Origin: Phlebopus portentosus
Lineage: Eukaryota > Basidiomycota > Agaricomycetes > Boletales > Boletinellaceae
Direction: 5' to 3'
Assembly: GCA_037892935.1 (NCBI GenBank)
Contig: JAYXKI010000002.1
Coordinates: 1,798,001 to 1,862,000 of the forward strand
DNA length: 64,000 bases
In this document: positions 9,001 to 45,154 of the stretch, piece after piece
Numbering within the stretch: the stretch's first letter is position 1
Layout: each line of letters begins with the position of its first letter
The notes under the pieces: model-generated
The model's input: only the letters and a program-made list of their open reading frames with translations
What the model was told of the DNA's origin: nothing
Database searches by the model: none
Position numbers and translations under genes: made by a program

Positions 9001-9453
9001 TAACCTCTCCGCCGGCCACAGAAAGGTATTCTCGTCGATCTTCAGTGCTTCCATCCTTTCGGCGGTTACACGACCCGTGGGTTCGAACGGCTTCGGTACA
9101 ACTGGCATCTCGGGCATCCCTCTCAACGGATCCGGATGCTGCCTTCGTACGATCCTGTATTCTTCTGGAAGGACTCCCGGGATCGGCCTGACTTTCTGTG
9201 CTACTCGTTTGTAAGCCATTACCACCGCGTCTTCTTCTTCTGGGGTTTCTAAAACACATGAACGATAAGACCGTTCTTCTTTGTCAGTAGTATAGCAATT
9301 TTTGTTTAATAAATAAGGCAATCGTTGGTTGAAAAGAGATGGGATCATGTGTGAAATAAATTCGAAATCATAAGAAAATACCTGAACCGGCAATTGGTTA
9401 CTACCATTCTCGTCTCGCCGATTTCTCTCAATCAGTTCCTCGACGCTTGCGGA
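6010..9453 (-). pseudogene. Element A pol: reverse transcriptase, RNase H, integrase (two stops)
   Basis: Reads in one frame, -1 relative to gag, from the overlap near 9453 to 6010. RT blocks include LVKKD, LDLFVAFDQRK, PMGYTNSLQIMHNDV and FADD as the catalytic box (family consensus is Y/F-x-D-D). RNase H starts at AVDSS and is broken by TAG at 7816-7818 (aligns with Trp in element B) and TGA at 7759-7761 (aligns with Arg in B). Integrase has an H-x4-H...C-x2-C finger (near 7170-7040), catalytic D (HIDSKV), D (VTDNGTPF) and E (GLVERRHF), then a GPY/F-like stretch. No chromodomain. In cells the polyprotein would copy the RNA and integrate it; here it is dead unless stops are read through. The short AT-rich stretch 9249-9381 looks intron-like but is 133 nt and does not restore a frame. 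Confidence 0.9.
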
Positions 9454-11825
9454 AAACCCTTTGGAAGTGGTCCTCGCGCGATCGTTCGAATTCCGGTGGC
9501 CACTTTGCTTTGCTTTCTGCGATCGTTCGGGTCCGTTAAGGTGATATGTTGGTCACCTGATGTGTAATCCTTCGTTTCGCACTCCGTAATAGCGAAAAAC
9601 GGTCTCCCCAACAAAGCCTGGAAGGGAGCGTTCGGAACGACTTGCACTTGGAGCGAAACGTCAATCCCGGCTATCGTGAACTTCGCATTAGAGATCATGC
9701 CAATGGTAGATGACCTAGCTGCGTCTGCTGTCTCGAGGATCATTCCTTTGTCAGGGGATAGGGGTATCTGAAGCTTCTCCCACACGTCTTCGCGGAGCAG
9801 ACACACTACGGCTCCCTGGTCGAGCACGCATTCGACTTCCATAGTGTCTTCAATCAACGCGCTAACGGTCCTGAGGGGCATGGATGCCTCTGCGGCAACG
9901 CCTTGTCCACTGAGCGCCAGTATTTCCTCCGTCGAAAGCGTTTCGCCTGTTTCGACTTGTTCCGACGCGAAACGCCCAACTTGTAATGTAAGTGAATCAT
10001 CTACGACCTCACCGTATTTGACTTCAGCCGCGTTGTATCTCTTCGCCGTCGTCAGCTCCTTCATCTGTTTCCTAACGTCCGGGGCGATTGAGAGGAGTTC
10101 ACGTTGGCTGATGGTGATAGGGGTATCGAGGGTACGAGTCAGAACGTTGGAGACTGCGCTCGAGTCTTCTATTGGTACGACGTATTTATACTGGGGTTGT
10201 GATTTCCTGGTAATGTCGTCCTGCTGCGGTGACTGGAGTGACCTTGTCGAGGGCCGCGCGCCACTCGGTGGCGCGGGCTGCAGTTTCGCCTGCGCCTTCT
10301 TATGAGGCTGAACTCTAGGGATCTCTACGCCATCGGGCTTCGTTCTTCGTCCACCAGCTGCCTTCTTCTTCGCCTCGTTAATCAAAATCTCCAAACGTTC
10401 GATGTCGTAGTTTTCCTGCTCGTCCTGATCTTCTTCGTCGTGACTATATGCGTACGCTGGACCAGCTTGATGGCTATATGCGGGCGTGACCGACTCGACC
10501 ATCCCTACTGTGTGTGTCGCCAGGGCTTTAGCATGAAAGCCATCGATTCGTTCTTTGAGATTGTTCCCCGGTAGCGACCTCGTAATGAGACCGCCGTTCG
10601 GCAACACAATCCTTCCATCCTGGCTCCTAACGCACTTTCCGGCTTGGATGTACTCGAGAACCTTCGTACACGATCGAATATAGTGTCCTGCTTCGCCGCA
10701 GAAGTTGCAAACTGGGTTTCGCAGAGTTTCGCTACGTTCCGCCCCTGGTCGATGCGGAACGTTCCCCTTGCTCAGGGCGTCGAGCGTAACCTGAAAACTC
10801 TTCAACGTATCCATTACCTTGGCCAAATCCACTTCTTCCTTCTTCACGATACTTGTCGAAGCTTCTCCGGTAGCTGGGGGTGGAAAGTTACTGCCGAAAC
10901 TGCCCACAATCTTTCCTCCCAGCACGAAATTCGAATGTTCGAGCACGTCCTTAATCTTGTAAGGCGTAGACGAATCGTGGTCTGGTAGCTTGATCTCGAT
11001 ACGACGAATTAGCGCCTCTCTAAGGTCTCCTGTAATTCCCATCAGGAACATCTCATCAGCTTGGGACTCCAAGATCTTTCCGTTCGTTATAAGATACTTA
11101 GAGCGCCTGACGAATTCTCGATGATATTCGCCTAGGTCTTCTCGGTTCTTGATCCCTTTCTTCGCCCGTTCTACGACCAAATGCTCCAGTTCTCCTTTGG
11201 AGTAGCGTTTCCCTGCCGTGAGACTCGGGTATAGAGCTATAATCTCTCTCTTCACCATCTCCACATCAGGGTTCGGGTTGGTAATCTCGTCGGTTGTCTC
11301 CCAAAGTTCCGCGACGTCAGTCTTCGCATAGTACAAGAACTTTCGGACGTGATCTCTACCGTTCCACGCGGCCTGTCTTGCTATTTCTGCAACGTCTTCG
11401 AAGAACCTAGGGAGTTCCTTTGGTTCTGAGCCGTCAAACGTTGGGGCACGTTTGTCCCCACGCGAGGGCGGTTGGTACGCCATTGCGGTTTGTCGATTTG
11501 TAAGTTGTTGTAATACGTTAGCGTTAGCAGACAGACGAGCTATTATTGCTGCGTTGCTGGCTAAGATCTGTTGAGTTCCGGTAGGTAGTTGGTAATTGGT
11601 AGGCGGGCTAGCTGGTCTGTTCGGTGAGCCTGGGGTGGAAGCTGGCACGGATGAGAGGTTGGGGAGTTCTGAATCGGCGATGGTAGATGGGGAATGATCT
11701 AGGGAATCGGTGTTGGAAGGAATGGCGCTAACGGATTGTCGCAAGGGTGTTTCGCTGTGTTCCACGTTTTCCGCAGCGGAACGTATGTTGCGATTGACAA
11801 TCCTAGGCCTTCGAGTCGGCGGCAA
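9432..11825 (-). CDS. gag: Element A gag with retropepsin domain
   Basis: Open for 797 codons to TGA at 9432. Capsid-like region near residues 125-300 (KRAPTFDGSEPKEL onward), zinc knuckle CNFCGEAGHYIRSC (C-x2-C-x4-H-x4-C) near residue 380, and aspartic protease near residue 690 with LDQGA in place of the usual D-S/T-G and a closing LLGRPFF. Asp is kept; Gln at the second position departs from the canonical motif. The frame has no ATG before about codon 115 (11483); it is open with no ATG back through the primer-binding site into the LTR, and the start at 11825 is a TTG. Element D keeps the same frame without ATG, so initiation is unusual or the start comes from a spliced leader. Confidence 0.85.
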   Translation of the reverse strand: MPPTRRPRIVNRNIRSAAENVEHSETPLRQSVSAIPSNTDSLDHSPSTIADSELPNLSSVPASTPGSPNRPASPPTNYQLPTGTQQILASNAAIIARLSANANVLQQLTNRQTAMAYQPPSRGDKRAPTFDGSEPKELPRFFEDVAEIARQAAWNGRDHVRKFLYYAKTDVAELWETTDEITNPNPDVEMVKREIIALYPSLTAGKRYSKGELEHLVVERAKKGIKNREDLGEYHREFVRRSKYLITNGKILESQADEMFLMGITGDLREALIRRIEIKLPDHDSSTPYKIKDVLEHSNFVLGGKIVGSFGSNFPPPATGEASTSIVKKEEVDLAKVMDTLKSFQVTLDALSKGNVPHRPGAERSETLRNPVCNFCGEAGHYIRSCTKVLEYIQAGKCVRSQDGRIVLPNGGLITRSLPGNNLKERIDGFHAKALATHTVGMVESVTPAYSHQAGPAYAYSHDEEDQDEQENYDIERLEILINEAKKKAAGGRRTKPDGVEIPRVQPHKKAQAKLQPAPPSGARPSTRSLQSPQQDDITRKSQPQYKYVVPIEDSSAVSNVLTRTLDTPITISQRELLSIAPDVRKQMKELTTAKRYNAAEVKYGEVVDDSLTLQVGRFASEQVETGETLSTEEILALSGQGVAAEASMPLRTVSALIEDTMEVECVLDQGAVVCLLREDVWEKLQIPLSPDKGMILETADAARSSTIGMISNAKFTIAGIDVSLQVQVVPNAPFQALLGRPFFAITECETKDYTSGDQHITLTDPNDRRKQSKVATGIRTIARGPLPKGFPQASRN
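9453..9459 (-). promoter_or_regulatory. Candidate -1 ribosomal frameshift site for gag-pol of element A
   Basis: In gag frame the minus strand reads G GGT TTT, matching the X-XXY-YYZ slippery pattern, shortly before the gag stop at 9432. The pol frame is exactly the -1 frame and is open across this point. No downstream pseudoknot was assessed. Confidence 0.55.
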
Positions 11826-11924
11826 AACCTGATGTTCTATAGGGACTCGAGCGGATTGGCTACGTGTAACTCGTCTGCTAGACGAATTTGGCGGGGTATT
11901 CGTAATGGTTGGACAGTGAAATCC

Positions 11925-11942
11925 CCCTCGCCGTGGGCTCCA
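11925..11942 (-). other. Primer-binding site of element A
   Basis: The minus strand reads TGGAGCCCACGGCGAGGG two bases inside the 5' LTR. It begins TGG, as expected for pairing with a tRNA 3' CCA end. Elements B and D have the same site with only one to two changes. The tRNA is not identified. Confidence 0.75.
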
Positions 11943-11944
11943 CT

Positions 11945-13572
11945 TGAAACTCCTGTGGACGTTCTGATGCCGGACAGGGAGTGTATAGTTCGAGGGGCTG
12001 CCCTAGAATACCTTCAAACGGTCAGCAGAGAATTACACCCGAGCTAAGGGCACGAAGGAGTGGAGGGAAATAGGGATAGACAATGGAAGGGCTTGGTGAG
12101 AACCGGGGATATGAGGGAAGCGCTCGAGGGGGAATTCCGAGGGTAGGCTTCTCCCGAGATCGACGGTGGCGGTGCAAAGGCTAAATCGACTCTCCGGCTC
12201 AACTGCGAGCTCTGGACTAAAGCCGACTAACCCAAGGCACAAGAACTAAACTAACTAAGCTACGCTAGTCGAACCACCAACCCAAACGTGACTAATCGAC
12301 TGTGCTAACACACTGGCAAGCGACTGCAGTCGATCTCACTCGTAGTCTTAAGTGTCGGAACGCGGCGTAACAATTCGAAACGCGATTTGATGGACGAAGG
12401 ACAATTGCTGAGTGTGTCGAAATGTGATGCGAGGAATGGAGGTGCGAAACGATGACGGAAGGGGACTGAGAGAATCGAAGGATATGTGTGGGACGATGAA
12501 ACCGACCGTTTCCGATCGAAACGATGCGGAATAGCACCGGGCTGGTCTTGAGGAAGCGGAGAGTGGAAAGTCAAGAGGAAAGGGGTGATATGGTGTCCTT
12601 TCCTGACGACAATGGAGAGGAGAAGGTGTTGCGAGACCAAATGCGAGCGGCACGCGGAGTAACTGAGTTACGAGCAAAACCGGGCGAAACGGATCGAAAC
12701 ACGTGAGGGGGTCTTGTTTCGGGTGAGAGGAGATAGAGAAGCCTTTATACGATGACGGCGAACTATACGAACACACGAACGGCTCTACTGCGAAGAGAGG
12801 TCACCGATCGACTGTACAGAACACGAAATGTCATATATTAGACTATAGAGACGAGAGAGTCCACTACGAACAAGTAGACTAGAGGTCGAGAGGCTTTGAG
12901 ACGATGTGAGAACTGCAAGCTAAGCTCCCACTCAGCTCCCACTAAGCTGTCCCTCTACTACGAGAGTCGTGCTATATTTATACTAAACGTCCAAGACTGA
13001 GCCTCCCAGCGGTCAGAGAACCTACGTCATAAAGAAAAGGGAACGCATATCGCTATCTACAAAGGAGAGGAGCGCATAGGAATGGTTTAAGGGACATATA
13101 GGTCAAAAGAAACAATACTAAGCATGTCTGGAACGAGAGCATAATGGATTAAAGAGGACGCATATAGAAAGGTCAGAATATGTGCGGAACCTTCGGAACC
13201 GGGTCTCTTTGAGCGGAACGAAGCGGAACTCGGGGAAACAACTCGGAAGGGCTCTGGCTAGCCTGACAAAGTAAGTCTGCGATGTTCAACAAAGGAGAGG
13301 GACTGAGGACGAGGTTGCAGGGTCAAATCTCTTTGTCTGGAATGCGGATCTGAGGTCCGGAGACTTGTGATCGACGCGTGCAAACTCGATGCCGTGATTC
13401 TCCCGTCTTGATGGCCGATCAAAGAACGGTGCACGTGCCATCTGGACTATGGCGTTCTTGCTAAGTTCACTCGTTCGAGCGAAACCAGTTGAAACCGAGC
13501 GAAACTAGTCGGAACACCGCGGAACTGGTTGTAACGACTCCGTACGTTCCCAAGCTTCAGACTTACTCTTCA
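11945..13572 (-). repeat. 5' LTR of element A
   Basis: 1628 bp, same ends as the LTR at 1554-3181. Contains the element promoter by position; a TATAAATA box lies on the minus strand at 12975-12982. Differences from the other LTR found by eye are all CG to TG or CA. Confidence 0.93.
12975..12982 (-). promoter_or_regulatory. Putative TATA box of element A 5' LTR
   Basis: Minus strand TATAAATA, the canonical form, about 1 kb from the inner end of the LTR. The same box is in the 3' LTR at 2584-2591. Transcription start not mapped. Confidence 0.4.
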
Positions 13573-30470: not shown

Positions 30471-30574
30471 TTTTACAGCACCGTCACTGAGGCCATCATC
30501 ACTATTCCTGCTTACTTTAACAACTCGCAATGTCAGGCAACACCAGTGTCATCTCTGGCCTCAACTTCTTCCGA
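30471..30574 (+). pseudogene. HSP70 fragment, T copy 2, part before element B
   Basis: TVTEA.ITIPAYFNNSQ-type HSP70 sequence, cut at 30574 by element B. The last four bases CCGA are repeated at 45155-45158, and the reading resumes at 45159. Confidence 0.78.
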
Positions 30575-32413
30575 TGTAGACTATCAGACTCTCCTAGATA
30601 GGGACAAAGGCGGCGGCGGCGGCGTTCGACCACAGAGAGGCGATGTCAAAGGTGTCAAGAGGAAAAAGGGGAGGTCCTACCAGATCTACAGACTACCTAC
30701 AGGCTTTCAGAAGCGACACTCAGCTCAGATGCACAAGGATCTGGCCGTTAGGCAGATCTGCCGCGCCTTCGAATAACTCGCCGTGGCGATCCGGGCCTCG
30801 ACAGCTGTATAGGGATCGTCGAGTCCGACTGAACTGGCGAAGGGGTCGCAGCGGCGGACTGGGTGTGGCGCCGGCGGAGGTTCGCACCAGTGCGATTCTG
30901 CCTGGTAGTCGGGGAGATGACGTTGGAACGACACAGAGAAGATGTGGGAGAGAGAGCGTCGACACTACTTGAAAGGGTAGTAGTGTCGGCGGTGGACCGA
31001 CGTGGAGGCGGCGGAGGCGGCGAGAAGTGGGAGACTGGATTCAGTCGGAAAGGGGCACCGGCGCCGACGGTAGCGGCGAACACAAGAAGAGTGACAGCTG
31101 CGTCGAGACGTCGAGGAAGTATAACAGATGCCTAGAAGAGTGACGGCTGCGTCGAGGCGTTGAGGAAGAATCACAAACGATCTGAACCGAGCAGCGGTGA
31201 CGAAACACAAAAGGGGCCTCAGGCGCAGGGAGAAATCGAAGACCGTGGGATTGATTACTAGAGGAGTGACGGCTGCGTCAGGACGTGGAGGAGGAATCCC
31301 GAACACTCAGGACCGAGCGGCGGTGGAGGCTAGAGAGAGAGGGACGGCGATGCAGATATAAGTGGGAAGTCCCCGGAGCGATTACTAGACGAGTGACAGC
31401 TGCGCAGAAGGGAGATGACCAGGGCGGCGAATGAGCTCAGCGGCTTCTATCCTGTGAGATCGGGGGCCACGCCGTCAGGACGGGATCGGCGAGGGCACGT
31501 GACCGGGAGTTCGCCCGATCCGGCTGTCTGGTTCTCTGTATATACTGGTTTCTTGATGGAGGCTCCTTTACTTGTGGTTGGTCTCTGGTAGCTGCATTCT
31601 AGAGTGTATATCTGCTGCTTTTTAGGATAGATACATGCTCTCTATATATACTATGAGTCCTTGATAAGAAATATCACTTAAAGCGGCGGGCGGCGAGGCG
31701 CGACAGGCGCGCCGCGACGGCGGGGGCCACCGCCGAGATGCGCCGCCAAGCCACCAAGACCTAGGGGCACCCCAATCGGAACGGCGGAGTGCTGGTACAT
31801 CGTGTCGGACGTCGGGGCCGTTCGGATCGGTCAGGACGCGCTCTATATGGATCTGAAACGCCAAGGGGTCGAATAAAACTAAAAGGGGGAATATACGGAC
31901 GGCCGCCGGGCATGCTACCATGCTCGGCGTACAATGTGGGATGATAAGAATATAAAACAATCAACGAAATGGACCTGAGATTGGCTATCGTTCACCCAGC
32001 CGGCGCGGCGGCGGGCATACACCTCCGCGATGGCGCGATATACATCCGCCGCAGCGTGTCCGGCCGCCGTGCGAGCATTTCCGAAGCCCGGAGTCACCGG
32101 ATTCGGCAGAACCGTTCTTGAGAGAGGCTGGAGAAGGGGAACTAGGATTTGGTCGAAGGGGGGACAAGGTGATCATAAGATAGGAGTGGAGGCGTCGCCG
32201 CTGGTTTGTATGGTCGGCGGCGGCGGCAGCGTGGGTGCTGTTCCTAGGCCGCCGAAAGTCCGGCGGCCACTGAGCAGGCTGTATTATGGGTAACGGCGGC
32301 GAAGGCTGGTTTGCTGACAATAGTATGCGGGGTGTCCTGGGTATGGCATAGGGGAGTACAGCCCTTACAGGCCTGTGCCGCTGGACCGGTACAGGTTAGT
32401 GCGGTGCACTACA
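30575..32413 (-). repeat. 3' LTR of element B
   Basis: 1839 bp. Plus strand begins TGTAGACTAT and ends GCACTACA. GC-rich, so full of chance frames up to about 110 codons in several frames; none supported. Confidence 0.92.
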
Positions 32414-32542
32414 TCTCCTTCTGACGAAGTAAAAAAAAGATTAAAAAAAAAAAAATGCTGGGTAGTGTAGGGGAGGTTTTTAGGCGAAGTTGAGCGGGGG
32501 TTGTGATGTAACTGGGTGGTATGTCTGTGACTTGCTCCTGGA

Positions 32543-33895
32543 TTAGTCTTCGGTTGTGAGATCGATCATCGGCAGATCGTGGATTGGTGCGGCGGTGTGC
32601 GGTGGAGGGTTGGCTCTGTCCGCCGCATCTTGTTGAGGTACGTTGTTGAGGTATGGGTGATGTTCAATGGATTCCCGAAGCTCGGCGAGGTGCTCTTCGA
32701 TGTCCTGGGCAGCTGCGATTGCTGAGAGCGAATACTGTTGTGCTTGGAGTATAATGGCGATGATGTTGGCGGCACAGTTGTGTATATCATCGTCGCCGCG
32801 CTCGTCGAAGAGGCGTAAGACTTGGATTATGGCATTGTGGGATAGTTCTGAGGCGGCGTCGGAGTAAATGACGGCGTTTTCGAGTGCAATAGGCGCTTCT
32901 CTGAGGATGGCGAGGGGGGCATTGGGTAGTACGCCATCGCCGAGAGGCGCGCCGAGAATTATGGGGATAGTAGTGAGGGCGCCACCGATGCGGAGCGTTT
33001 CTCGGATGCGGCAAACGAGTGTCGCTTTGTTGGCAGGTGTCAGATGGTGTCTGGCGAAGAGTTCGGGGATGATCTGAAGCATTGCGGGAACGTGTCTGGC
33101 GGGGAATGGCATCGCCGCAGGAAACGCGTCGGCGAGGAGGTCGCAAAATGATCCCCAGTTTCCGCCGGAGAGGCGTGGGTCTTGACAGAGGAGTTGCTGG
33201 GCGTCCGGCGAGGCCCAAATATATAGCAGGAAGATTAGAGTCGCCGTGTCGGGGCAGGGGTGATGAAAACTGCGAAGGGCGGCGATGAGAATATTTGGTA
33301 TAGCTGTGTAATCAGGGTGCCATGGGTAAAGGAGCATGGGGTGTCCGGGAAGTGTGATTAATTGGGCGAAGTTGAAATCTAAAAGGTGTTGGGCATGGCG
33401 GGGGAAGTGGACTGGGTGCGGGACTTGGAGTAGTGGTGTCGCCGGTGCGAATGGGAACGCTTCGGCGAGGCTGGGAACCAGCTGGGGCATGTTGTAAGGA
33501 GCGCCGATGGTATTCGTAATCTGTAGGGTAGATGTTTTGGGGGCGGCGAGTAGGTCGCCGACCGCTTTATATATTTTCGGCGAGTGTTTTCCGGGTTGGC
33601 CGGAGGGTATGATGGCTTTTGGCAAGGTGAAGTTGCCAGTATTATAGTGTAGAGGCCAATATAGGCGAAAGCCGAAGTAGTGTTCTAATGGAAGGGGGCC
33701 TAGGCGAAGGTGTTTCGTGTAGGCGGATCGTCGGCGGGACGAGTAAGTGGGATGGGAGGCTAGCGGCGAGGCTGGTTCGCCGGTAGTTCGGGTATGGTGG
33801 CCTGTAGCGGCGTGGGGCGAAGCAATCTTTGAATAGAAGGGGGCCTGGGCGAAGGAGTTTCGTATAGGCGGGGCATCGGAGGGATGAGCTTCGAT
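32543..33895 (-). CDS. Element B sense accessory frame between antisense gene and 3' LTR
   Basis: Open on the minus strand from just after a TAA at 33896-33898 to the stop at 32543, 450 codons, with no ATG in the first part; a TTG lies at 33625 and the first ATG is around residue 45 after it. Sequence is Ala/Leu/Pro/Ile-rich with no membrane or zinc motif: LLYPWHPDYTAIPNILIAAL, LIFLLYIWASPDAQQLL, AANIIAIILQAQQYSL, acidic C-terminus (MIDLTTED). Not recognised. A roughly 40-bp direct repeat (about 33688-33727 and 33826-33871) lies in its 5' part. Missing start suggests a spliced exon or non-ATG start. Head-to-head with the antisense gene at 34491. Confidence 0.5.
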   Translation of the reverse strand: MEAHPSDAPPIRNSFAQAPFYSKIASPHAATGHHTRTTGEPASPLASHPTYSSRRRSAYTKHLRLGPLPLEHYFGFRLYWPLHYNTGNFTLPKAIIPSGQPGKHSPKIYKAVGDLLAAPKTSTLQITNTIGAPYNMPQLVPSLAEAFPFAPATPLLQVPHPVHFPRHAQHLLDFNFAQLITLPGHPMLLYPWHPDYTAIPNILIAALRSFHHPCPDTATLIFLLYIWASPDAQQLLCQDPRLSGGNWGSFCDLLADAFPAAMPFPARHVPAMLQIIPELFARHHLTPANKATLVCRIRETLRIGGALTTIPIILGAPLGDGVLPNAPLAILREAPIALENAVIYSDAASELSHNAIIQVLRLFDERGDDDIHNCAANIIAIILQAQQYSLSAIAAAQDIEEHLAELRESIEHHPYLNNVPQQDAADRANPPPHTAAPIHDLPMIDLTTED

Positions 33896-34490
33896 TTAGA
33901 AGGGAGTTCGGAAGTAAAGTTTAAATGGTTAATCATGGAAGGTGTCGTCATATCATGATCTTGATCTGGTACCAGATATGGATACAATGGCCTTGTAGTC
34001 AGGGGTAGTGGTACATCGGAAATACAATTCGGTGGGCTTTTGGCGGTCCGGGAACCAGTCGGGGACGCCTGGTAGTTAACTAGGGTGGTGTAGGTCGTAG
34101 CATATAGGTTGAGGATTCGTTAATGGGTGTAGGTACGGCTAGGGTAGGGTGTGCGGCGATATTTGATGATCGGCGGGGGGGGGGGGATCGGCATAGAATG
34201 TTGTATCGGCCGGCTTGGCAGGGGTCTGGAAGGTTGGGGCTGTGTTGTGGCGGGGTTCGGCGGATTGTTCCAGCGAGTTTTGGAGGGGGGAGAGTCGCCG
34301 AGGGGTTTGTGGAATTTGAGTGGAGATTGCGGCGGAGCAGTGGGGAGGATTTGGTAATTGATTGGTAAAAAGGGGGCGGGGAGGTCGCGTGTGTGGAGGG
34401 CTGAAATCGGAGTTTGAATTGGGTGCGGTGAGGATATAGACGACGGGGACTCGTGTCTGAGTTCCCCGTTTCTCTTTTTCTCTTTCCACC
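33896..34490. other. Intergenic region between two divergent accessory genes of element B
   Basis: No supported frame; several C-rich chance frames. By position it could hold promoters for both the plus-strand gene (34491) and the minus-strand frame (33895). A G9 run is at about 34174-34185. No clear TATA box. Confidence 0.4.
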
Positions 34491-36138
34491 ATGGCGCCGA
34501 CGATTCTCAGCGTCAGCAGCAGCAGCGACAGCAGCAGCAACAACAGCAGGGAGGGGTCGGAGGCTCCCTCCGACCAGATGGAGGTGGACGCCGGGGCGGC
34601 GACGGGGGCTCCTGCCACGGGCGGGATGTTGCGGGCCCCCAGCGGGCAAGAGGTCCTGCCGGAGTCGCAGGGGGAGACGGAGGAGGAGGGTAGGGAGGGG
34701 GGGGAGGGGGGGGAAGAACTGGACGCGGCTATGTGGGCGGCCATTACGGCGGTGAGGGGGTGGATCGAGCGGGCCCGAAACGATGAGGGGCCCGCTGCTG
34801 ATGAGCTCGATGGGCTCTTGGTAAATTTGCATTCCCTTGATAATAACCGTGTGAGCTGACGATCTGGTTTACTTTTTCAGAAGGGGCTTGGGGAGCGCTT
34901 CCCTGCGCTATCCGACGATGCGAGGGCTGAGAAGCCCGAATATTATTGCGCGGGGAGGTGGTTGGTGAACCGGGCAACGGTGGTGCGGATGGCCGCCGGG
35001 GAGGCTAAAGACGCTGCCGAGGCATTGGACAAGGCCGCCCAGTTGGAGGTGAATCGCCTCCGATGCATCGCGGAGAGGCTGGCCGAGCGCCGGGAGGAGG
35101 AGGCTCGTGAGGAGGCGAAGCAGAGCGCAGCGAAGGTGGCCGAGGAGGCGAAAGCCTCCTTCCTCAAGACGCTCGCCACCCTGCGAGTTGGGGGCCCGGA
35201 GGTCGTCGAGGCCTTCTGTAGGTCCTCAGGGCGCGATGAGGCGGGGAACCTGGTAAGTCGTTGTCTTGAATTTTGTTTTTTACTGTCTCTGATAATATCT
35301 TCTTAGGTTGCGGCACCTAAAACGAGCACCAAAGCGAAGGTGCAGGCGCGTCCCGCGGCCAGGCTGGCGACAGGAAAGACGATTACTCTTCCTGGGTCAT
35401 TGATCCCTGGTCTTGAGGTGGCGGGTTCGTCCAGCGAGACGCTCAAGGGGGAGAGTGGTCGAGTGATGCGAGGGGGATGCTCGGGGACGGTCACGGGAAA
35501 GACCATTACTCTTGAGGTTGAGTCTGATGAGGGGTCAACGCGAGCGAAAAGGTCGAGTGGAAAGGAGGTATATGTCGATGTGTGTTTTATGTCCTGGATC
35601 TTATTCTTCACTGACATGTTTCGTTTCTAGGTGCCTCCCCTTCCGAAGCGCATACGTGAGCCGGTGGTCGAGCCGCCGGCGAAACGAGCAAGAGCACCGG
35701 GAGTGGCGGCCTCGGGTGGGGGAAGGGCGAAAGAGGAGGCGACAGGAAGACAGGACGGGGCGGTGAGTGCTGTCTTGAATTTTGTTCTCGACACTCTCTG
35801 ACTATAATATTCAGAGGGAGGAGGGGGGTTGGGAGTTCGAGAGGGTGGGGCGGCTCCCCAGGGGTCAGAGCCGCCGCCTCCTCGAGTTCGTGTCGCCAGG
35901 GTGCAAGCGGTGCATCGGGCGTGGGGAGATGTGCACGAGGCGCCCGCCGGCGCTCCTGTGCCAGGCGTGCTGGGTATCGCACCGGTGGTGCAATATCTTG
36001 GAGTCGGATGTGACCTTCCTGGCGCAGCAGGAGGTCCTCGCTCTCCGCCGGCAGCTGGAGGGGATGGAGTCGACGTTGGCGGGAGAGAGTGCGGGTGGGG
36101 GGGTGGAGGAAAAGGCCCAGGGTGAACGCCGTGGATAG
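34491..36138 (+). CDS. Antisense accessory gene of element B, Zn(II)2Cys6-type protein
   Basis: Five exons on the plus strand: 34491-34820, 34881-35252, 35307-35567, 35631-35762, 35815-36138. Introns of 60, 54, 63 and 52 nt are all GT-AG, all phase 0, three with CTGAC branch sites. The 472-residue product reads without a stop. N-terminus is Ser-rich then acidic; residues about 140-200 are a long Ala/Glu/Arg helix, probably coiled-coil; exon 3 has a repeated TGKTITL motif; exon 4 has a basic PPAKRARAP nuclear-signal-like stretch. Cysteines at 395, 398, 405, 414, 417 and 424 give C-x2-C-x6-C-x8-C-x2-C-x6-C, the fungal binuclear zinc cluster; a short helix follows. Likely a nuclear DNA-binding factor (inference). 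It is tail-to-tail with pol and fully antisense to the element's genomic RNA. Confidence 0.75.
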
Positions 36139-36575: not shown

Positions 36576-39500
36576 TCATAAGTTGGATTCGGCGTCTAGG
36601 TCATCCGCCGCGGTCTCTTGTGCTAGGTTGTCGAGTTCCGGTGTGGATTTCTGAGTGAGGTCTTCGACTGAGTCGATGATTCGAGTGCGTGCGTGGTAGG
36701 GGATAACTCTGAATGCTGCGTAACGGAGTGCTGAAATGGCGCCGTTTGCTTCGGTGAGAACGTAGGATCCTCCTTTGGTTCGCCGCACGACAATCATGGG
36801 CCCTAGGTACTTCGGCTTTGTCTTCCTGTTCAGCTCGTTTTCGATCTGGGAGTTCCGGACCAGCACGAGTGAGCCGGGGGCGAAATTGTAATCCTTAATT
36901 GTTGCGGCGTGGGTTTTCTCGAAGTCCTGTATGGATTTGAAACGCCCCTGGATGACGGATTCCTTGACTCGTTGGAGGTCCTCGGGTCGTTTCTGGAGTG
37001 CCCTTGCTCTCACCGCGATGAGTTGTGCGTCGGACATCTTGGAGGTGATCGCCGGCGAGATGTACGTCTGTTCGGCGAGGTCGAAGGGGAGTACTGGTTC
37101 GACGCCGTGGGCCATAAAGTATGGGCTATAGCCTGTGCGGCGTTGGATCGTGATCCGTTCGGCCCAAATGGCGTGGTATATATGCTGGGACCACTTGTCT
37201 GGGCTTGCGTCGGCGAGCTTCATTAGGGTTTCTCTAAGGTCCCGGTGTCGCCGCTCAATGATTCCGTTGGCTCTTGAGTTGTACGGCGAGATTCGAATGT
37301 GCTGGACATTGTATTTGGCGAGAAGGCGGGGTAAGTCCTTGGAGAATGAGGCGCCATTGTCGGTTACGATCTCCTCGACTCGTCCCCATCTTGACAAAAT
37401 ATCTTTAAAAACGAAGCGTGCTATTGAGGCGGCGTTATCTTTGCGCAGCATTCGGAATTCGGGGTATCCGGTGAGCAAGTCTCGGGCCTGAACGATATAC
37501 TTGAATCCGCCGGAGGGCAGCATTAACATCACGTCTATATGCACCCTGGTGAATAGCGGCGCAGGCGTCGGGCTTTGCGGCGTAGTATATATTTTCGTAA
37601 ACTGCCTCATTTGGCATCGGTGGCAGGTTCTGATATACCATTTGATGTCCTGATGCATTCCTGGCCACCAGAATCGGTCTTGGATCGTTGTTCTGACAGA
37701 GAAGAAGCCTTTGTGGCTGAGTTCATCGTGGGCAGTTCTGATAATGGAAATTCGGCGTTCCGGCGGAATAGCGAGTGCGGCGTGACCTTTGTCGTTCTTT
37801 CTGTAGAGTTCGCCGTGCTGTAGGAAGAAACGAGTGGCTCGGTGTACGAACTGTTTGAATTGGGCGTCTGAAAGATCGGCGGGGCGGGATGGGGCGGCGA
37901 GAAATTTCTTGATACAATCGAGGTCTTTGAATCCTTTTTGGGAGGCTTTGTGATCGGGGAGTTGTATGGGTTCGCTGTTTGGGGTATAGGCCGTGTCGGA
38001 AAGGTCTTGGTTTAGGAAGGAGTATTGATGGTCGATCCATTCTTCGAAGCCTTCGTCTCGCGGCGGATCGGTTTGTGCGGCGCTGCGGCGTGATAGGCCG
38101 TCTGGGCCGAGGTGTTTGGGCGCCGGCGTATGAATGATCGTAAAATTGAAAAGTAAGATGCCGGCGATCCATCTATTGATAGTGGCGTTGGGTTGGAGGT
38201 CTGGGTTGTTAATCATGCCTTTAATATAGCTGGCGTCGACTTCGACAAAAAAGTGATCGATGCCGACGAGGTATATGCGTGCCTCATATAGAGCTCTGAA
38301 GAGGCCGAAGAGTTCTAGCTTCGCCTGGGAGTAGTTTCGTTCTCTGTTGTTCCAGGTTCCGGACATGAAACGAGATGGGACCCTTTCGCCGTTTTTGCCG
38401 AGCTGTAACAAGATGGCGCCGTAGCCATGAACGGAGGAGTCTACACAGAAATGAACAGGTTGTCCTGACTCGTAGTCAATAGAACGAATGGCGCCAGAGG
38501 ATGCTATGGCGTGTTTTAGTAGATCCATAGATCGGCGGGCGTCTTCGTCGAATAGGAAGGGCTGGTCTTTGCAGAGTAGTTTGTTGAGACCGGCGGATAG
38601 TCTGGCGTAGTTCTTCACGAAGTGTCTAAGGACGCCGGCCATACCTAAGAATGCCCGAACATCGTGGACATCCCACGGCGGCGGCCAATCTATTATCGCC
38701 TTGACCCTGGATGCGTCTGGGACTCGGCCGGCGTAATTACAGGTGTGTCCTACAATGACTGCTTCTGGTGCGGCGATGATGAGTTTCTTACCCGAGACAG
38801 TGGTGCCGACTACTTTAAGGCGTTGGAGGACGCAGTTGACGTCGTTGAGGTGTTCCCAGATGAAGCAGCGGATGTTCGGGTTCCCCGGAATGCTTTCGTA
38901 TTTTCCGGCGGCGAGCTCGTATCGGGATTTAGGGCCTTTTACAGGAATATCGTCAATGTATGGGATACAGACATGGGGTATCTCATCTTTGAGGACGAAC
39001 GTGACGTCGGCGTGCATAATTTGTTGCGAGTTGGTGTATCCCATAGGAATCGAGGTGAGGCGAAACGCGCCGAGAGGTGTTTGGAATGTTGTGAGGTCAC
39101 GGGATCATACGTCGAGCTTTCTCTGGTCGAAGGCGATGAATAGATCGAGTGTGGTGTAGCAGGCATGGCCGCCGAAGGTCTCGGCGATGTGTTCTGTGGG
39201 GTAAGGGACAGAGGGGTCGCGTATGGAGACTTTGTTGAGTGGCTGGAGATCGTGTACAAGCCGAAGGGATTTTCCATCCTTTTTAACGACACAGAACCAT
39301 CGGGAGCGGTAAGAGGAATTGGACGGCTCGTAGACGCCGGATTTAATTTTGTCTTTGATTATGCGAACCACTTCGTTGAAGATCCCCGGCGGAATAGGGA
39401 TGTTTTTCATTACCCACGGCGTATGGTCGACAGTAGGAATTAGAACCGGCGCGAAGTATTGATAGTCGAGGGAGCCCTTTTCTGTTTCGTCCCAAGCTAG

Positions 39501-40061
39501 GCCGTCTTCATGTTGTAGAAGGGTCCAGTAGGCGAGGTTCTTTTCTTCCTCACTGAGGAAGCCAGTTGGGTCGATGTCTAGGGCGTCGAAGCGTTCTTGC
39601 GTAAAGCGGCGTCCTGGAATGAACTCCGGCGGATCGATAGGGAGCTTCGGTAGATCTGTGAGCGGCTGCAGGTGTGATTTGCGTATGATGCGGTAGTCCT
39701 CTGGAAGGGTCGCCGATATAGGTTTGGTTCGTTGGGCGACCTTTTTGTACTTGTATGCGTGCCCGGCCGGTTGAGCGGCCTTGGTATTAAGAGTGCTGTT
39801 GGAGCGGGGTATTCGGTTGCGTACGGGGAGTGATTCATCGTCGAAAATAGAGTTAATGAAGAAGGCTGGATGTTTTTGGGCTTTGTTCTGGGCTGTGAAA
39901 CCCTTTTCAGCGGATCGATCAGAAAATGAGGTGGAGATATCTATGGTGTGGGGACTGAAGGCGATATTTACAGTCGCCGGGCCGTGATGGAGCACATATG
40001 CGTCGGGTATGGTTGGGGGTATACGCCGCATATATTCTGGCGGACGCTGCTGGGGCGTCAT
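36576..40061 (-). pseudogene. Element B pol: RT, RNase H, integrase (one stop)
   Basis: Starts at ATG 40061, whose TG is shared with the gag stop (ATGA). One frame to 36576, 1161 codons, with one TGA at 39105-39107 after FIAFDQRKLDV, consistent with CGA to TGA. RT box YIDD (CIPYIDDIPVKG), RNase H around FCVDSSVHGYGAILL and YSQAKLELFGLF, integrase finger H-x4-H...CHRCQ, catalytic D (HIDVML), D (VTDNGASF) and E (GIIERRHRD), GPY/F-like KYLGPMIVVRRTKGGSY. About as long as pol of A and clearly related, but with a different way of linking to gag. Would be functional but for one codon. Confidence 0.92.
40058..40061 (-). promoter_or_regulatory. ATGA stop/start overlap between gag and pol of element B
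   Basis: Minus strand ATGA: TGA ends gag and ATG opens pol. Fits coupled termination-reinitiation as known for some fungal retroelements and viruses; inferred here. Confidence 0.65.
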
Positions 40062-42517
40062 TGTCTAGGGGGGCGCTGTTTTTCTGTCCCGGCGCCGCGC
40101 TGAATCGTCGGGATCGACATGGTTTCGTTCGTATCGGGATGAGTAAGGTATAGCGTCTGTTCACCGTCGGCCTCGTCTATGACCTGCGCCCTGGTGTGTA
40201 CGAAAAACGGCTGGCCTAATAGTAGCTGAAAGGGGGCCTTTTCGACGACCTGGACTTGGACAACAATAGAGAAGGCGCCTATGGTGAGTCTGACGCGAGG
40301 GATGAGTCCCGCCGAGCGTGAGGTTTGTCTGTCGGCGGTTTCTACTGTGATTGCTTGGCTCATTATCGTCAGGGACCCGAGGTCCTTCCATACCTCTTTT
40401 GGCATGGCGATAAATGTCGACCCCGAGTCGAGCAAAGCTTTTACTTCGAATTTATCATCGAGCCAGACCTCGATTTCGCGGAGGGGAATGTTCGGCGGGG
40501 CGATGGAAGGATCTTCGTCGCCGAAGTTAACCGGCGAGGTGGGCCTCAGGATTGAGGCATACATTGCCATCTCGTGATCAGGATTTTCCCTAATTAGTTC
40601 TCGGCGCCCCGTGACGAATTCTTTACACTTCTTTCTGATTTCGGGAGAGGCGGCGAGCAGGCTTCGGATCGGCAGGGTGACTTCCGAGTCCAGAATCTTG
40701 TCGAAAACGTTTGATACCGCGGCGTCATCATATGCTGGTACAGTGGTTCGGTATTGTGGCTTCGGATCCGCCGCGTCATCCCTGTGCGGCACCGAGGGCA
40801 TCGGCGGCGGGGCCAGGCGTTGTCTGGGTGGTTTCCCTTTCTTGCTGTTATCTCCCCATTTTGGGTTGGGGTCTCGAGGCGGCTTTCTGGTGGGGATTTC
40901 GATTCCGTCGAAAACTTCTCTGGGGCCTGGCTGTCTTCCGGCGGCGGCGAAGGCATTCTGCGGTTGTTCGGTGGATTCTTCTTGTTCAAAAAGGAGTGCG
41001 ACTCCGTCGCAGGCATCGTCGTCTGGGGGGTCTTCTGGGGTGATAGCCTCAAAGTAGTTCGATTCCTGGATTCGCGGCGGCAGGCCGTTCGGCGGATTTG
41101 TATTGTAGGCTAAGGGAGGCGGTGCCCGGTTGAGGCCCTGGTACATAGATTCCTGTGATGGAGGGTGTGACTGATACATGGATTGTTGAGTCTGTGGTTG
41201 TCCCTGATATGTAGGATCCTGCCTTGGCGGAGCGATCCTTGGCGGCGTGTCGGATACGGGCTGAATGGGGAGCTGGACGCCAACTGGTGCGTAGTTTGGA
41301 TTCTCTATGAAGAGCTTATTAATCCTGTCCAGTACCGACATCCCCGGTTCTCCCTGAGGAAGTCGGCCATTGGAGGGGTACAAGTACCCTTTGGCGTCGG
41401 CGAGCATGATTCCCCTCTGGATCAGGGAGATCTTGGTGGGACAGTCGTGGGTAGAGTGCGTTATACTGGCGCATACGGCGCATTTTCCGTTAAATCTGGC
41501 TTGTCGGGGCTGCGGCGGGGCTCCTGCGGTTGGCGGCGGAGCGCGGCAGTTTGACTTCTCGGTGGCTTCACGGAGGGCGCGCATTTCCTGGATTAGGAGG
41601 GACACCCACAGTTCTTCTTGCTTGACCTGGGGTTGGTTGATGACTCCGTAGGCCGGAGCACCGGGTTGCGGCGGCGGCGTGTACGTCGTAACTTGTGTAT
41701 AGGTGGGCATGGCCGCTGTCGCTGCATACATCAGGGGTTGGTCGGCGGTTGTGAGGCGGCCGCCGGTTAGGATGCGTTCTAGTTCTCTTACGACTGTGTC
41801 GATGTCCCAGGGCACGCCAGTAGGGTGGTCGTGCTTGACAAACCGCAAATTAAGATCCAGCTCTCTGTTTAGCGTCGGGTGGAGGCCTTCTCTGAACATA
41901 CGCTTCTGTTCGAACTCTGATAGCATGCCGGCGTCAATAAGATACGAGGAGATGGTGATAAAGTTCCTATGGTATTCGCCGAGGGCGGCGGTGTTCAGCA
42001 TAATTTGGTTGCAGCTTATGTTAATAAGGTTGTGGAGGTCGCCGAGTGTGTACTGGGTCGTAGCATTTGGGTAGTACTTTAGGATAGTGTCTTTGAATGC
42101 CATAAAGTCATTTCCTCTCATTTCGGGCCTTTTGCACCATAGCTGATCGTCTTTAGTGTCAGCGTAGCATCTTGCCCAAGCAATCATTTGTGCATCTGTT
42201 AGGCCAGCACTTCGTCCAAATAGCCGGACTCTGTTAAAGAAGATGGGGATTTCCGCGGGGTCGCCGGAGGCGTTGAACTTCGGCACGCGGCGGTCTCCCG
42301 GGTAGGGCATTGTGGCTCCTGGCACTGGTGGGTTGGGACCACTTAATGGATGGGTATCTGGGTCACTGAGGTCTGGGAGAGGGGGAAAGGCGCCCGCGGG
42401 GGGTGGTGCTGGTGCGGCATAGGCTGGTGCGGCGGGGGACGGCTGTTGGGGGGGCGGCGGGGTCGATCCTGAGGCTGCGGGGGGCGCAGCGGGAATGCCG
42501 GTATGGGTGCTGGTCAT
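40058..42517 (-). CDS. gag: Element B gag with retropepsin domain
   Basis: ATG at 42517 to TGA at 40058, 819 residues, uninterrupted. Pro-rich N-terminus, capsid-like region about residues 75-280 (RRVPKFNASGDPAEIPIFFNRV), zinc knuckle CAVCASITHSTHDC near residue 350, Pro/Gln-rich spacer, and aspartic protease near residue 700 with canonical LLDSGSTFIAMP and LLGQPFF. Both boundaries are ATGA overlaps: its ATG overlaps the ORF0 stop, and its TGA overlaps the pol ATG. Confidence 0.9.
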   Translation of the reverse strand: MTSTHTGIPAAPPAASGSTPPPPQQPSPAAPAYAAPAPPPAGAFPPLPDLSDPDTHPLSGPNPPVPGATMPYPGDRRVPKFNASGDPAEIPIFFNRVRLFGRSAGLTDAQMIAWARCYADTKDDQLWCKRPEMRGNDFMAFKDTILKYYPNATTQYTLGDLHNLINISCNQIMLNTAALGEYHRNFITISSYLIDAGMLSEFEQKRMFREGLHPTLNRELDLNLRFVKHDHPTGVPWDIDTVVRELERILTGGRLTTADQPLMYAATAAMPTYTQVTTYTPPPQPGAPAYGVINQPQVKQEELWVSLLIQEMRALREATEKSNCRAPPPTAGAPPQPRQARFNGKCAVCASITHSTHDCPTKISLIQRGIMLADAKGYLYPSNGRLPQGEPGMSVLDRINKLFIENPNYAPVGVQLPIQPVSDTPPRIAPPRQDPTYQGQPQTQQSMYQSHPPSQESMYQGLNRAPPPLAYNTNPPNGLPPRIQESNYFEAITPEDPPDDDACDGVALLFEQEESTEQPQNAFAAAGRQPGPREVFDGIEIPTRKPPRDPNPKWGDNSKKGKPPRQRLAPPPMPSVPHRDDAADPKPQYRTTVPAYDDAAVSNVFDKILDSEVTLPIRSLLAASPEIRKKCKEFVTGRRELIRENPDHEMAMYASILRPTSPVNFGDEDPSIAPPNIPLREIEVWLDDKFEVKALLDSGSTFIAMPKEVWKDLGSLTIMSQAITVETADRQTSRSAGLIPRVRLTIGAFSIVVQVQVVEKAPFQLLLGQPFFVHTRAQVIDEADGEQTLYLTHPDTNETMSIPTIQRGAGTEKQRPPRQ

Positions 42518-43374
42518 TGTTGGTATCGAGGCCGTCTTAGGGGTGTACTGGGGGTGGGTGGTTGGGCATTGTCAATTGGGGAGAGCCGCGGCCTCTGAGC
42601 TGGGGTCAGCGGCGTAAGAGGGGGGGGTGGGGAGAGCCTCACCAATCGCTCTTCTTCGACGGGGGATAGTGGAGAGTCGGGGGTGATTGCGTGGCCGTGT
42701 ACGAGGGAGTCGGGGACGTAAAGGTTGTCGTCCTCCTGTTCTTCTGCGGCGGGGTATAACTGTAGGCCGGTGCGGCGGTGGATATCTGGGGGGTTGTCTA
42801 TGTCGGAGAAGAGGTCTGTTTCGATGGGACCGGTGGCTGGAGGTTCCTGGAGGGATATTGACAGGTCCTCGATGCCGCCGGGGACACGAACGTGAGTACT
42901 GGGGCGAATTTCGGATTCGCGGAGGTCTTTAGGAACGTGGATGAAGCGAGGGGGAATTATAGGCAATATAGGGCATGCGGCGGCGGTGCTTATGCTTTCG
43001 CCAGGCGGTGGGTTGTGTGTAAAAGGAGTGATAGATGCTCTTCTGGGACGCCGGGTGGGTAGGTCATCTGCGGCGATGGATGCGCGTCGACGGTTCAGCG
43101 CGGACGGAGATCTGGGTGCGGTGGGACGGGGTTCTTCTGTTTGGCCTCTTGTAAAGAGTGTGGAATAATGGTATGGTTGGCCGGCGGTTGTGGCTGAGGC
43201 TGTTTGACTGTTTTCCGCCCTTCTTTGCAGCCTTAGTGAGTATCGCGTGCCCTTGGAAGGGCCTGAGATCGGTTGGAACGACACCTTTTTACCTCCCTCG
43301 CGGTGGGCTCCAAAATGTAGACTATCAGACTCTCCTAGATAGGGACAAAGGCGGCGGTGGCGGCGTTCGACCAC
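42514..43374 (-). CDS. Element B ORF0, frame without ATG upstream of gag
   Basis: Open for 286 codons from inside the 5' LTR (GTG at 43374), through the primer-binding site, to TGA at 42514, which overlaps the gag ATG as ATGA. It contains no ATG at all. After the primer site it reads VSFQPISGPSKGTRYSLRLQRR, then basic RRRASIA and RPRRASIT repeats, then an acidic Pro-rich half ending TPSTPLRRPRYQQ. Protein-like composition and exact abutment to gag argue for coding; the start may be non-ATG or supplied by a spliced LTR leader. No family recognised. Confidence 0.5.
   Translation of the reverse strand: MVERRHRRLCPYLGESDSLHFGAHREGGKKVSFQPISGPSKGTRYSLRLQRRAENSQTASATTAGQPYHYSTLFTRGQTEEPRPTAPRSPSALNRRRASIAADDLPTRRPRRASITPFTHNPPPGESISTAAACPILPIIPPRFIHVPKDLRESEIRPSTHVRVPGGIEDLSISLQEPPATGPIETDLFSDIDNPPDIHRRTGLQLYPAAEEQEDDNLYVPDSLVHGHAITPDSPLSPVEEERLVRLSPPPPLTPLTPAQRPRLSPIDNAQPPTPSTPLRRPRYQQ
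43295..43312 (-). other. Primer-binding site of element B
   Basis: Minus strand TGGAGCCCACCGCGAGGG, three bases inside the LTR; one base from the site of element A. Confidence 0.75.
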
Positions 43375-45154
43375 AGGGAGGCAATGTCAAAGGTGTCGAG
43401 AGGAAAAAGGGGAGGTCCTACCAGATCTACAGACTATCTACAGGCTTTCAGAAGTGACACTCAGCTCAGATGCACAAGGATCTGGCCGTTAGGCAGATCC
43501 GCCGCGCCTTCGAATAACTCACCGCAGCGATCCGGGCCTCGATGGCTGTATAGGGATCGCCGAGTTCGACTGAACCGGCGAAGGGGTCGCAGCGGCGGAC
43601 TGAGTGCGGCACCGGCGGAGGTTCGCACCAGTGCGATTCTGCCTGGTAGTCGGGGAGATGACGTCGGAACGACACAGAGAAGATGCAGGAGAGAGAGCGT
43701 CGACACTACTTGAAAGGGTAGTAGTGTCGGCGGTGGACCGATGCGGAGGCGGCGGAGGCGGCGAGAAGTGGGAGACTGGATTCAGTCGGAAAGGGGCGCC
43801 GACGCCGACGGTAGCGGCGAACACAAGAAGAGTGACAGCTGCGTCGAGACGTCGAGGAAGTATAACAGATGCCTAGAAGAGTGACGGCTGCGTCGAGGCG
43901 TTGAGGAAGAATCACAAATGATCTGAACCGAGCGGCGGCGACGAAACACAAAAGGGGCCTCAGGCGCAGGGAGAAATCGAAGACCGCGGGATTGATTACT
44001 AGAGGAGTGACGGCTGCGTCGGGACGTGGAGGAGGAATCCCGAACGCTCAGGACCGAGCGGCGGCGGAGGCTAGAGAGAGAGGGACAGCGATGCAGATAT
44101 AAGTGGGAAGTCCCCGGAGCGATTACTAGACGAGTGACAGCTGTGCAGAAGGGAGATGACCAGGGCAGCGAATGAGCTCAGCGGCTTCTATCCTGTGAGA
44201 TCGGGGGCCACGCCGTCAGGACAGGATCGGCGAGGGCACGTGACCGGGAGTTCGCCCGATCCAGCTGTCTGGTTCTCTGTATATACTGGTTTCTTGATGG
44301 AGGCTCCTTTACTTGTGGTTGGTCTCTGGTAGCTGTGTTCTAGAGTGTATATCTGCTGCTTTTTAGGATAGATACATGCTCTCTATATATACTATGAGTC
44401 CTTGATAAGAAATATCACTTAAAGCGGCAGGCAGCGAGGCGCGACAGGCGCGCCGCGACGGCGGGGGCCGCCGCCGAGATGCACCGCCAAGCCACCAAGA
44501 CCTAGGGGCGCCCCAATCGGAACGGCGGAGTGCTGGTACGTCGTATCGGACGTCAGGGCCATTCGGATCGGTCAGGACGCGCTCTATATAGATCTGAAAC
44601 GCCAAGGGGTCAAATAAAACTAAAAGGGGGAATATACGGACGGCCGCCGGGCACGCTACCGCGCTCGGCGTACAATGTGGGATGATAAGAATATGAAACA
44701 ATCAACGAAATGGACCTGAGATTGGCTATTGTTCACCCAGCCGGTGCGGCGGCGGGCATACACCTCCACGATGGTGCAATATACATCCGCCGCAGCGTGT
44801 CCGGCCGCCGTGCGAGCATTTCCAAAGCTCGGAGTCACCGGATTCGGCAGAACCGTTCTTGAGAGAGGCTGGAGAAGGGGAACTAGGATTTGGTCGAAGG
44901 GGGGACAAGGTGATCATAAGATAGGAGTGGAGGCGTCGCTGCTGGTTCATATGGTTGGCGGCGGCGGCGGCGTGGGTGCTGTTCCTAGGCCGCCGAAAGT
45001 CCGGCGGCCGCTGAGCAGGCTGTATTATGGGTAATGGCGGCGAAGGCTGGTTTGCTGACAATAGTACGCAGGGTGTCCTGGGTATGGCATAGGGGAGTAC
45101 AGCCCTTACAGGCCTGTGCCGCTGGACCGGTACAGGTTAGTGCAGCGCACTACA
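43316..45154 (-). repeat. 5' LTR of element B
   Basis: 1839 bp, matching 30575-32413. A TATATATA run on the minus strand at 44384-44391 could serve as a TATA box. Chance frames ignored. Confidence 0.92.

Follow-up and report, generated by a model that had tools for sequence, protein, structure and literature searches.

A predicted spliced zinc-cluster-type gene lies antisense in two families of DUF4100-type gypsy elements

The antisense gene and its host element

We analyzed a stretch of 64,000 nucleotides from Phlebopus portentosus (GenBank assembly GCA_037892935.1, contig JAYXKI010000002.1, positions 1,798,001 to 1,862,000, forward strand; here, the window). It holds two long terminal repeat (LTR) retrotransposons of the Ty3/gypsy type, elements A and B, each with a predicted spliced gene on the strand opposite to its gag-pol. 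The gene in element B (gene B; 34491-36138, plus strand) runs from ATG to stop through five exons and four GT-AG introns, all in phase 0, and has 472 codons. Exon 1 (34491-34820) begins with an ATG in the context ACCATGG and includes a poly-G tract (34688-34714). It is followed by intron 1 (34821-34880, 60 nt), exon 2 (34881-35252), which is coiled-coil-like by eye, intron 2 (35253-35306, 54 nt), exon 3 (35307-35567), and intron 3 (35568-35630, 63 nt). Exon 4 (35631-35762) is basic and contains KRIREPVVEPPAKRAR, which by eye resembles a nuclear localization signal and may be one. Intron 4 (35763-35814, 52 nt) precedes exon 5 (35815-36138), which carries a six-cysteine cluster (35902-35991) and the stop codon (36136-36138). 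The five exons, four phase-0 introns, codon count, coordinates, and strand that an earlier reading of the letters alone (the sequence-only reading) had assigned to this gene were all reproduced.

The introns are AT rich, with a GC content of 0.30 to 0.39 versus 0.60 to 0.70 in the exons. Each contains an in-frame stop and a branch-like CTNAY motif that starts 17 to 31 nt from the 3' end. The least secure part of the model is the 3' half of exon 1, which holds the poly-G tract; this half is missing from two Sanghuangporus sanghuang proteins at NCBI (P0001 and P0002). The cluster, CKRCIGRGEMCTRRPPALLCQACWVSHRWC, comprises residues 395 to 424, lies in the last exon 48 residues from the protein end, and has the spacing CX2CX6CX8CX2CX6C. 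When 10 cysteines were placed randomly in 472 residues, this spacing arose in 0 of 100,000 trials. A helix is predicted, with low confidence, past the cluster in exon 5.

Element B is bounded by LTRs of 1,840 bp with TG..CA ends (3' LTR, 30574-32413; 5' LTR, 43315-45154; both minus strand), which are 96% identical (72 differences) and flanked by a 4-bp target-site duplication (TSD), CCGA. The pol part (36576-39104, minus strand) encodes, in order, RNaseH (186-314), an H2C2 zinc domain (446-501), and an integrase core (rve; 520-610) according to a Pfam scan, so that RNaseH precedes integrase; rve scored 31.5 bits, just below the 32.6 cutoff. The gag-pol part (40058-42571, minus strand) encodes DUF4100 and an aspartyl protease, and no reverse transcriptase (RT) model matched the piece between the two parts (39105-40064). 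The paired LTRs and these opposite-strand domains supported a gypsy host, and the LTR and domain coordinates bore out the antisense location of gene B between pol and the 3' LTR. Its stop codon lies about 440 bp from the pol end, tail to tail, and 2,077 bp separate the 3' LTR from its ATG.

Copies, relatives, and a second family

A search of the genome (38.37 Mb, 23 contigs) with gene B DNA yielded 40 matches, including 26 full-length copies. All 26 retain four GT-AG introns and the six-cysteine spacing in exon 5, and 25 retain the ATG. Exons 2 to 5 alone are open in 13 of the 26 copies. The length of exon 1 is not a multiple of three in 11 copies, and in the alignment the frame-changing indels of these copies fall in the length-variable poly-G tract; the length differences may stem from slippage or assembly error. 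Searching the whole genome with the exon 5 protein gave 33 matches, each with 80% or greater identity to B; among the 35 candidates scored, none was a more distant paralogue at an E value of ≤0.1. For 30 of the 33 matches, a DUF4100 match lies on the opposite strand, no more than 9 kb away toward pol (median distance, 4,463 bp). The same gene, which the sequence-only reading had proposed to seek in other gypsy copies, is thus present there, and gene B belongs to the element. In a further set of DUF4100 matches, with 889-residue frames (10 matches), none was paired with A or B antisense matches.

Element A carries an antisense zinc-cluster gene of its own (gene A; 3310-5565, plus strand), with exons at 3310-3570, 3623-3997, and 4045-5565 and about 718 codons. 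The sequence-only finding on gene B makes no mention of this second gene. Its introns (52 and 47 nt) are both in phase 0; intron 1 has no CTNAY motif and intron 2 has no in-frame stop. The window copy contains two in-frame stops. The gene A cluster reads CDQCQKRGRDCVGLPQRTCAPCLK.AKGC, and both the A and the B clusters have the Zn(II)2Cys6 spacing CX2CX6CX5-12CX2CX6-8C. The element itself has a 3' LTR (1554-3181, minus strand; TSD, CCGC), a 5' LTR (11945-13572, minus strand) that is 99.3% identical to it, and gag-pol open reading frames (ORFs) at 6010-12002 (minus strand) with DUF4100, protease, RT, RNaseH, and H2C2. The ATG of gene A (3310) lies 128 bp inward of the 3' LTR (end at 3181), and TGGAGCCCAC.. 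directly follows the 5' LTR in elements A and B alike, where a tRNA primer-binding site would lie. We examined 12 gene A copies (the window copy plus L037 to L047); the second donor reads AT in 3 of them, and the 5' part of L040 was unmatched. Among the 51 best A-family genome matches (of 120 from a search with protein P0010), 37 have an antisense DUF4100 partner at a median of 4,478 bp, and 4 of the 14 unpaired matches have DUF4100 nearby in another arrangement.

The pol parts of the two elements are 48% identical (276/580). Their antisense proteins had no BLASTP similarity when tested with P0001 and P0010, and a profile comparison aligned cluster on cluster weakly (E value, 0.012; probability, 3.7%). 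Two diverged gypsy families thus share the arrangement of an antisense spliced zinc-cluster gene, for which a common origin followed by fast divergence seems the likelier explanation.

Relatives of both genes were found in Sanghuangporus. Each protein search scored about 8,000 candidates sharing the most words, a procedure that distant relatives may escape, and among these candidates it returned Sanghuangporus proteins and one Chlorella ohadii protein. We set the latter aside (9% of B; E value, 4e-7; ubiquitin-type annotation). The proteins closest to B, both from S. sanghuang, have identities of 84% (over 60% of the query) and 94% (over 53%). A Sanghuangporus vaninii protein is 53% identical over 69% of the query, and its alignment with B shows no insertion at exon junctions 2 to 4; the cluster is missing from the predicted C terminus of this protein. 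These nearest proteins point to a Sanghuangporus (Hymenochaetales) as the source of the genome. Gene A has relatives among the annotated proteins of S. sanghuang, S. baumii, and S. weigelae. Between S. sanghuang and S. baumii, identity in A is 65/68 in the cluster and basic region, 61/71 in the coil, 130/172 in the low-complexity middle, and 119/183 in the N-terminal part. Viral contigs yielded no relative of the B pol or of P0010.

Selection and CpG decay

The naive ratio of nonsynonymous to synonymous substitution rates (dN/dS) among gene B copies was 0.41, and most changes were C>T or G>A. We dropped this value as evidence of selection since CpG transitions dominate it and show no constraint in B. 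Because of the excess of C>T and G>A, CpG transitions were set apart, and we compared amino-acid-changing with silent variants among the non-CpG changes, stratified by transition and transversion (non-CpG nonsynonymous/synonymous [N/S] odds). These odds were 0.49 in gene B (P = 0.0033; 26 copies, poly-G left out) and remained 0.49 when codons near indels were removed (P = 0.0048). In gene A they were 0.38 (P = 1.2e-5; 12 copies, codons near indels left out). A pol piece, used as a positive control, gave 0.19 (P = 1e-20) in 19 copies; pol-side sequence was available for 21, of which L009 (partial) and L026 (no match) were dropped. Selection on non-CpG changes is therefore detectable in both antisense genes.

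By exon, N/S was 0.49, 0.16, 0.66, 0.31, and 0.50 for exons 1 to 5 of gene B, the lowest value (exon 2) coming from only 4 and 8 changes. N/S lay between 1.1 and 2.0 in both genes for four of the five alternative frames. The remaining one, on the minus strand and sharing its third positions with the gene, gave values of 0.45 (B) and 0.37 (A). This frame contains 2 stops in the B column reference, 18 in A, and 5 in the window (over 34491-35762 plus exon 5). For pol, the frame comparison was made with the three plus-strand frames and a single distinct one on the minus strand. Judged from the sequence, gene B is a sound gene model under selection, and its expression and function are predictions.

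CpG-type transitions also make up most of the differences between paired LTRs, with 62 of 72 in element B, 11 of 11 in element A, and thus 73 of 83 in the two together. This suggests that copies are strongly methylated and decay after insertion, and plain LTR dating is therefore unreliable.

Known systems, proposed role, and alternatives

In 2011, Zhao et al. reportedly described the antisense gene of Boty, brtn, in Botrytis cinerea and Sclerotinia. Passages of a review (PMC7264820) describe antisense accessory genes of LTR retrotransposons, of unknown function, in plants and in one fungal element, and its section 5 places brtn in the fungal gypsy element Boty of Botrytis/Sclerotinia; antisense extra genes, which the sequence-only reading had cited from some plant gypsy elements, are thus not restricted to plants. 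Like gene B, brtn lies antisense between pol and the 3' LTR of a fungal gypsy-type element (passages of PMC7264820 and PMC8365987). Boty differs in its ascomycete host and in the chromodomain of the Boty-like Gag-Pol (excerpts of PMC4227169). Both genes A and B have DUF4100-type hosts, and gene B fits the class of antisense additional ORFs called aORF-3R, being antisense and between pol and the 3' LTR. In plants, the antisense ORFs of Retand with TRP28 (also Grande gene23 and RIRE2) are predicted to bind DNA, and a regulatory role has been proposed for them (portions of PMC11963269). They are unlike the present genes in host kingdom; TRP28 (PF04195) was unmatched by the B protein at an E value of ≤1 and by exon 5, P0001 to P0003, P0006, and P0008 at an E value of ≤10, and the word zinc is absent from the main text of PMC11963269.

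Two further comparisons bear on function. HBZ of human T-cell leukemia virus type 1 (HTLV-1) and APH-2, APH-3, and APH-4 are spliced antisense retroelement genes whose products are mostly nuclear proteins acting on their own LTR (passages of PMC10186651). HBZ differs from the gene B product in being a bZIP protein rather than a zinc-cluster protein, encoded by a retrovirus and transcribed from the 3' LTR, and no homology is implied; Pfam scans of the antisense proteins matched no bZIP model and no other transcription factor domain above the cutoff. Fungal Zn(II)2Cys6 factors (PF00172) resemble gene B in their six-cysteine spacing, CX2CX6CX7-8CX2CX6C, whereas gene B has its cluster near the C terminus, is unmatched in Pfam, and occurs in multiple copies in elements. 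Among the top-ranked papers of a literature search by title and abstract start, with thin coverage of subscription journals, none described a zinc-cluster gene encoded antisense to a fungal gypsy element. As far as we searched, a spliced antisense gene of the zinc-cluster type, in a basidiomycete and in two families, is new. With a DNA-binding-type motif and measurable selection in two basidiomycete families, the function of an antisense gene becomes testable in one organism. Since a second family has such a gene as well, it looks like a regular component of the life of these elements and not a chance acquisition. As a warning for annotators, hypothetical genes predicted in mushroom genomes include some that belong to elements.

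We lean modestly toward a reading in which DUF4100-type Ty3/gypsy elements of Sanghuangporus carry an accessory gene, antisense between pol and the 3' LTR, that codes for a DNA- or chromatin-binding regulator of the element. The gene is present in most family copies and conserved as a protein, given the 30 of 33 matches paired with DUF4100 and the non-CpG constraint. Gene B would be transcribed antisense from its own promoter, and gene A from a promoter in or beside its 3' LTR, since its ATG lies so close to that repeat. After splicing of the transcript, translation would yield a nuclear protein that combines a coiled coil, a basic stretch, and a Zn(II)2Cys6-like part. Through binding to DNA or chromatin, this protein would adjust the transcription or silencing of the element. 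By analogy with HBZ and with the proposal for TRP28, regulation of the element LTR or of silencing would be the leading function, and an antisense zinc-cluster gene, if a regulator, would parallel HBZ. The sequence-only reading had named the element LTR or host genes as possible targets. The introns would survive retrotransposition because the gene lies antisense to the genomic RNA, which would present them to the spliceosome only as reverse complements, to be copied and not removed. An intron-bearing gene persists only if the genomic RNA keeps its introns, and the 26 of 26 copies with introns fit this; the arrangement illustrates a way for introns to be retained in a retroelement. We raise more tentatively, as a fuller version that we would rather doubt than accept, that an antisense intron-bearing zinc-cluster transcription factor in mushroom DUF4100-type gypsy elements predates the A/B split. 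It would be an HBZ-like arm that evolved independently of retroviruses, regulating its own LTR or resisting silencing by DNA methylation, with intron loss prevented by its antisense position.

The LTRs were searched for paired CGG triplets against shuffles that preserve dinucleotides only. The B LTR has 23 adjacent CGG-triplet pairs versus 2.3 in shuffles, and CCG-N9-CGG occurs 5 times versus 0.9, at the identical five places in both LTRs. Nine of 63 pair classes reached P < 0.03 in this LTR (4 direct, 4 everted, and 1 inverted), compared with 2 of 63 in the adjoining region of element B (32414-34490). The triplets are spread over several patches and do not form one simple tandem array. The excess is compatible with zinc-cluster sites without being specific to them, and composition could explain it.

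Several observations weigh against a conserved gene for a DNA-binding regulator. The sequence-only reading called gene B intact, which is true of the window copy and fails for the family, in which 6 of the 26 full-length copies have a frame open throughout; similarly, 3 of 12 gene A copies (L042, L044, and L045) combine the ATG, both GT-AG introns, an open frame, and the cluster. A DUF4100 partner is missing at 3 of 33 B matches and 14 of 51 A matches, and up to 56 of 123 DUF4100 matches have no adjoining A or B antisense gene, an upper bound because only the 51 best A matches were entered. Comparison of substitutions across copies, a check that had been suggested for gene B, gave constraint on non-CpG changes and none on CpG transitions, for which the nonsynonymous/synonymous rate ratio was 0.88 in B (P = 0.22) and about 0.94 in A (from counts); in pol, it was 0.77 (P = 0.02), or little constraint. 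The 90-bp cluster within B has 5 nonsynonymous changes and 1 synonymous change and thus no constraint, and N/S in gene A was 0.36, 0.95, and 0.29 by exon, exon 2 being nearly unconstrained. Splice-site conservation in gene B is not significant alone (13 of 193 inner intron sites vary), and we rejected it as proof of selection because the introns are CpG poor and hardly vary. The A LTR has hardly any CGG-pair excess (1 of 63 classes at P < 0.03).

The protein-level comparisons point the same way. Pfam Zn_clus was unmatched by the full B protein at an E value of ≤1 and by B exon 5, P0001 to P0003, P0006, and P0008 at an E value of ≤10. In a sequence search of the PDB, B exon 5 had a best E value of 0.91, and P0008 had no match at an E value of ≤1. 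Fold models were poor, with a predicted local distance difference test score (pLDDT) of 46 for P0010 alone and 48 for B exon 5 (AlphaFold2, 10 sequences). The first PDB match of B exon 5 in Foldseek was a HAP1-DNA complex (1qp9), which is not significant (E value, 2.5; probability, 0.08) and no evidence alone. The "perfect Zn(II)2Cys6 cluster" and "fungal-type transcription factor domain" of the sequence-only reading therefore stand as a cysteine spacing, and not as a Zn_clus match or a significant fold match.

The absent Zn_clus match also suits a coding, selected gene whose product is not a transcription regulator and acts instead as a nucleic acid chaperone, a factor for nuclear import or for the targeting of integration, or a suppressor of silencing that does not recognize a specific DNA sequence. 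This alternative, which we consider unlikely yet worth keeping in view, draws further on the lack, between cysteines 2 and 3, of the customary basic pattern and on the A LTR with its near absence of a CGG-pair excess. It sits less well with the six-cysteine spacing retained in two families, the basic stretch and coil beside the A cluster, the CGG-pair excess in the B LTR, and HAP1 being the first, though nonsignificant, fold match.

The antisense transcript could instead act as RNA, pairing with the sense genomic RNA and feeding or evading RNA silencing, while the protein matters little. Dicers, Argonautes, and RNA-dependent RNA polymerases are present in S. vaninii (part of PMC9769868), antisense RNAs are discussed as regulators of plant elements (passages of PMC7264820), and the CpG decay suggests methylated copies. 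We find this improbable because two observations call for a protein: the non-CpG third-position excess that both families show in their predicted frame, and the protein blocks conserved across species. Double-stranded RNA is taken up by S. vaninii (PMC9769868).

Passive cargo, that is, a host transcription factor gene transduced by the element, is slightly less credible still. Intron-containing genes are normal host genes, and 20 of the 26 B copies lack a fully open frame; against this, the gene occupies the same place in two families with diverged pols and is constrained in both, and the exon 5 search gave only close, mostly DUF4100-paired copies and no distant paralogue within its scored candidates. 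We rejected a recent host gene capture on the DUF4100 pairing and the diverged A and B pols. That gene B is a shadow ORF, its frames staying open by chance in a GC-rich stretch that faces a sense gene or noncoding DNA, is very improbable: the exon GC content favors long ORFs on both strands, sense ORFs of 245 to 330 amino acids lie opposite gene B, and one of 245 amino acids (34139-34876, opposite exon 1) falls by its coordinates in the minus frame with the equally low N/S in B, but that frame is broken by its stops in the window and in A, the plus frame carries the signal in A, the two long sense ORFs opposite exon 5 are in frames with pooled N/S values of 1.1 and 1.6, and two families encode spliced six-cysteine proteins.

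Between gene B and the 3' LTR, element B has a further ORF, of 450 codons and in the sense orientation (32546-33895, minus strand). It had no Pfam or NCBIfam match, occurs in many genomic copies, and has a non-CpG N/S of 0.57 (P = 0.004; 19 copies, 2 dropped). A 206-bp unit (33683-33888) in the 5' part of this ORF is single in the window copy and in L025 and has at least two matches in the 19 other fetched B copies. Elements A and B are both nested insertions, each lying within a further long repeat, one copy of which it splits (54-1554/13561-19886 for A and 29417-30571/45158-51813 for B).
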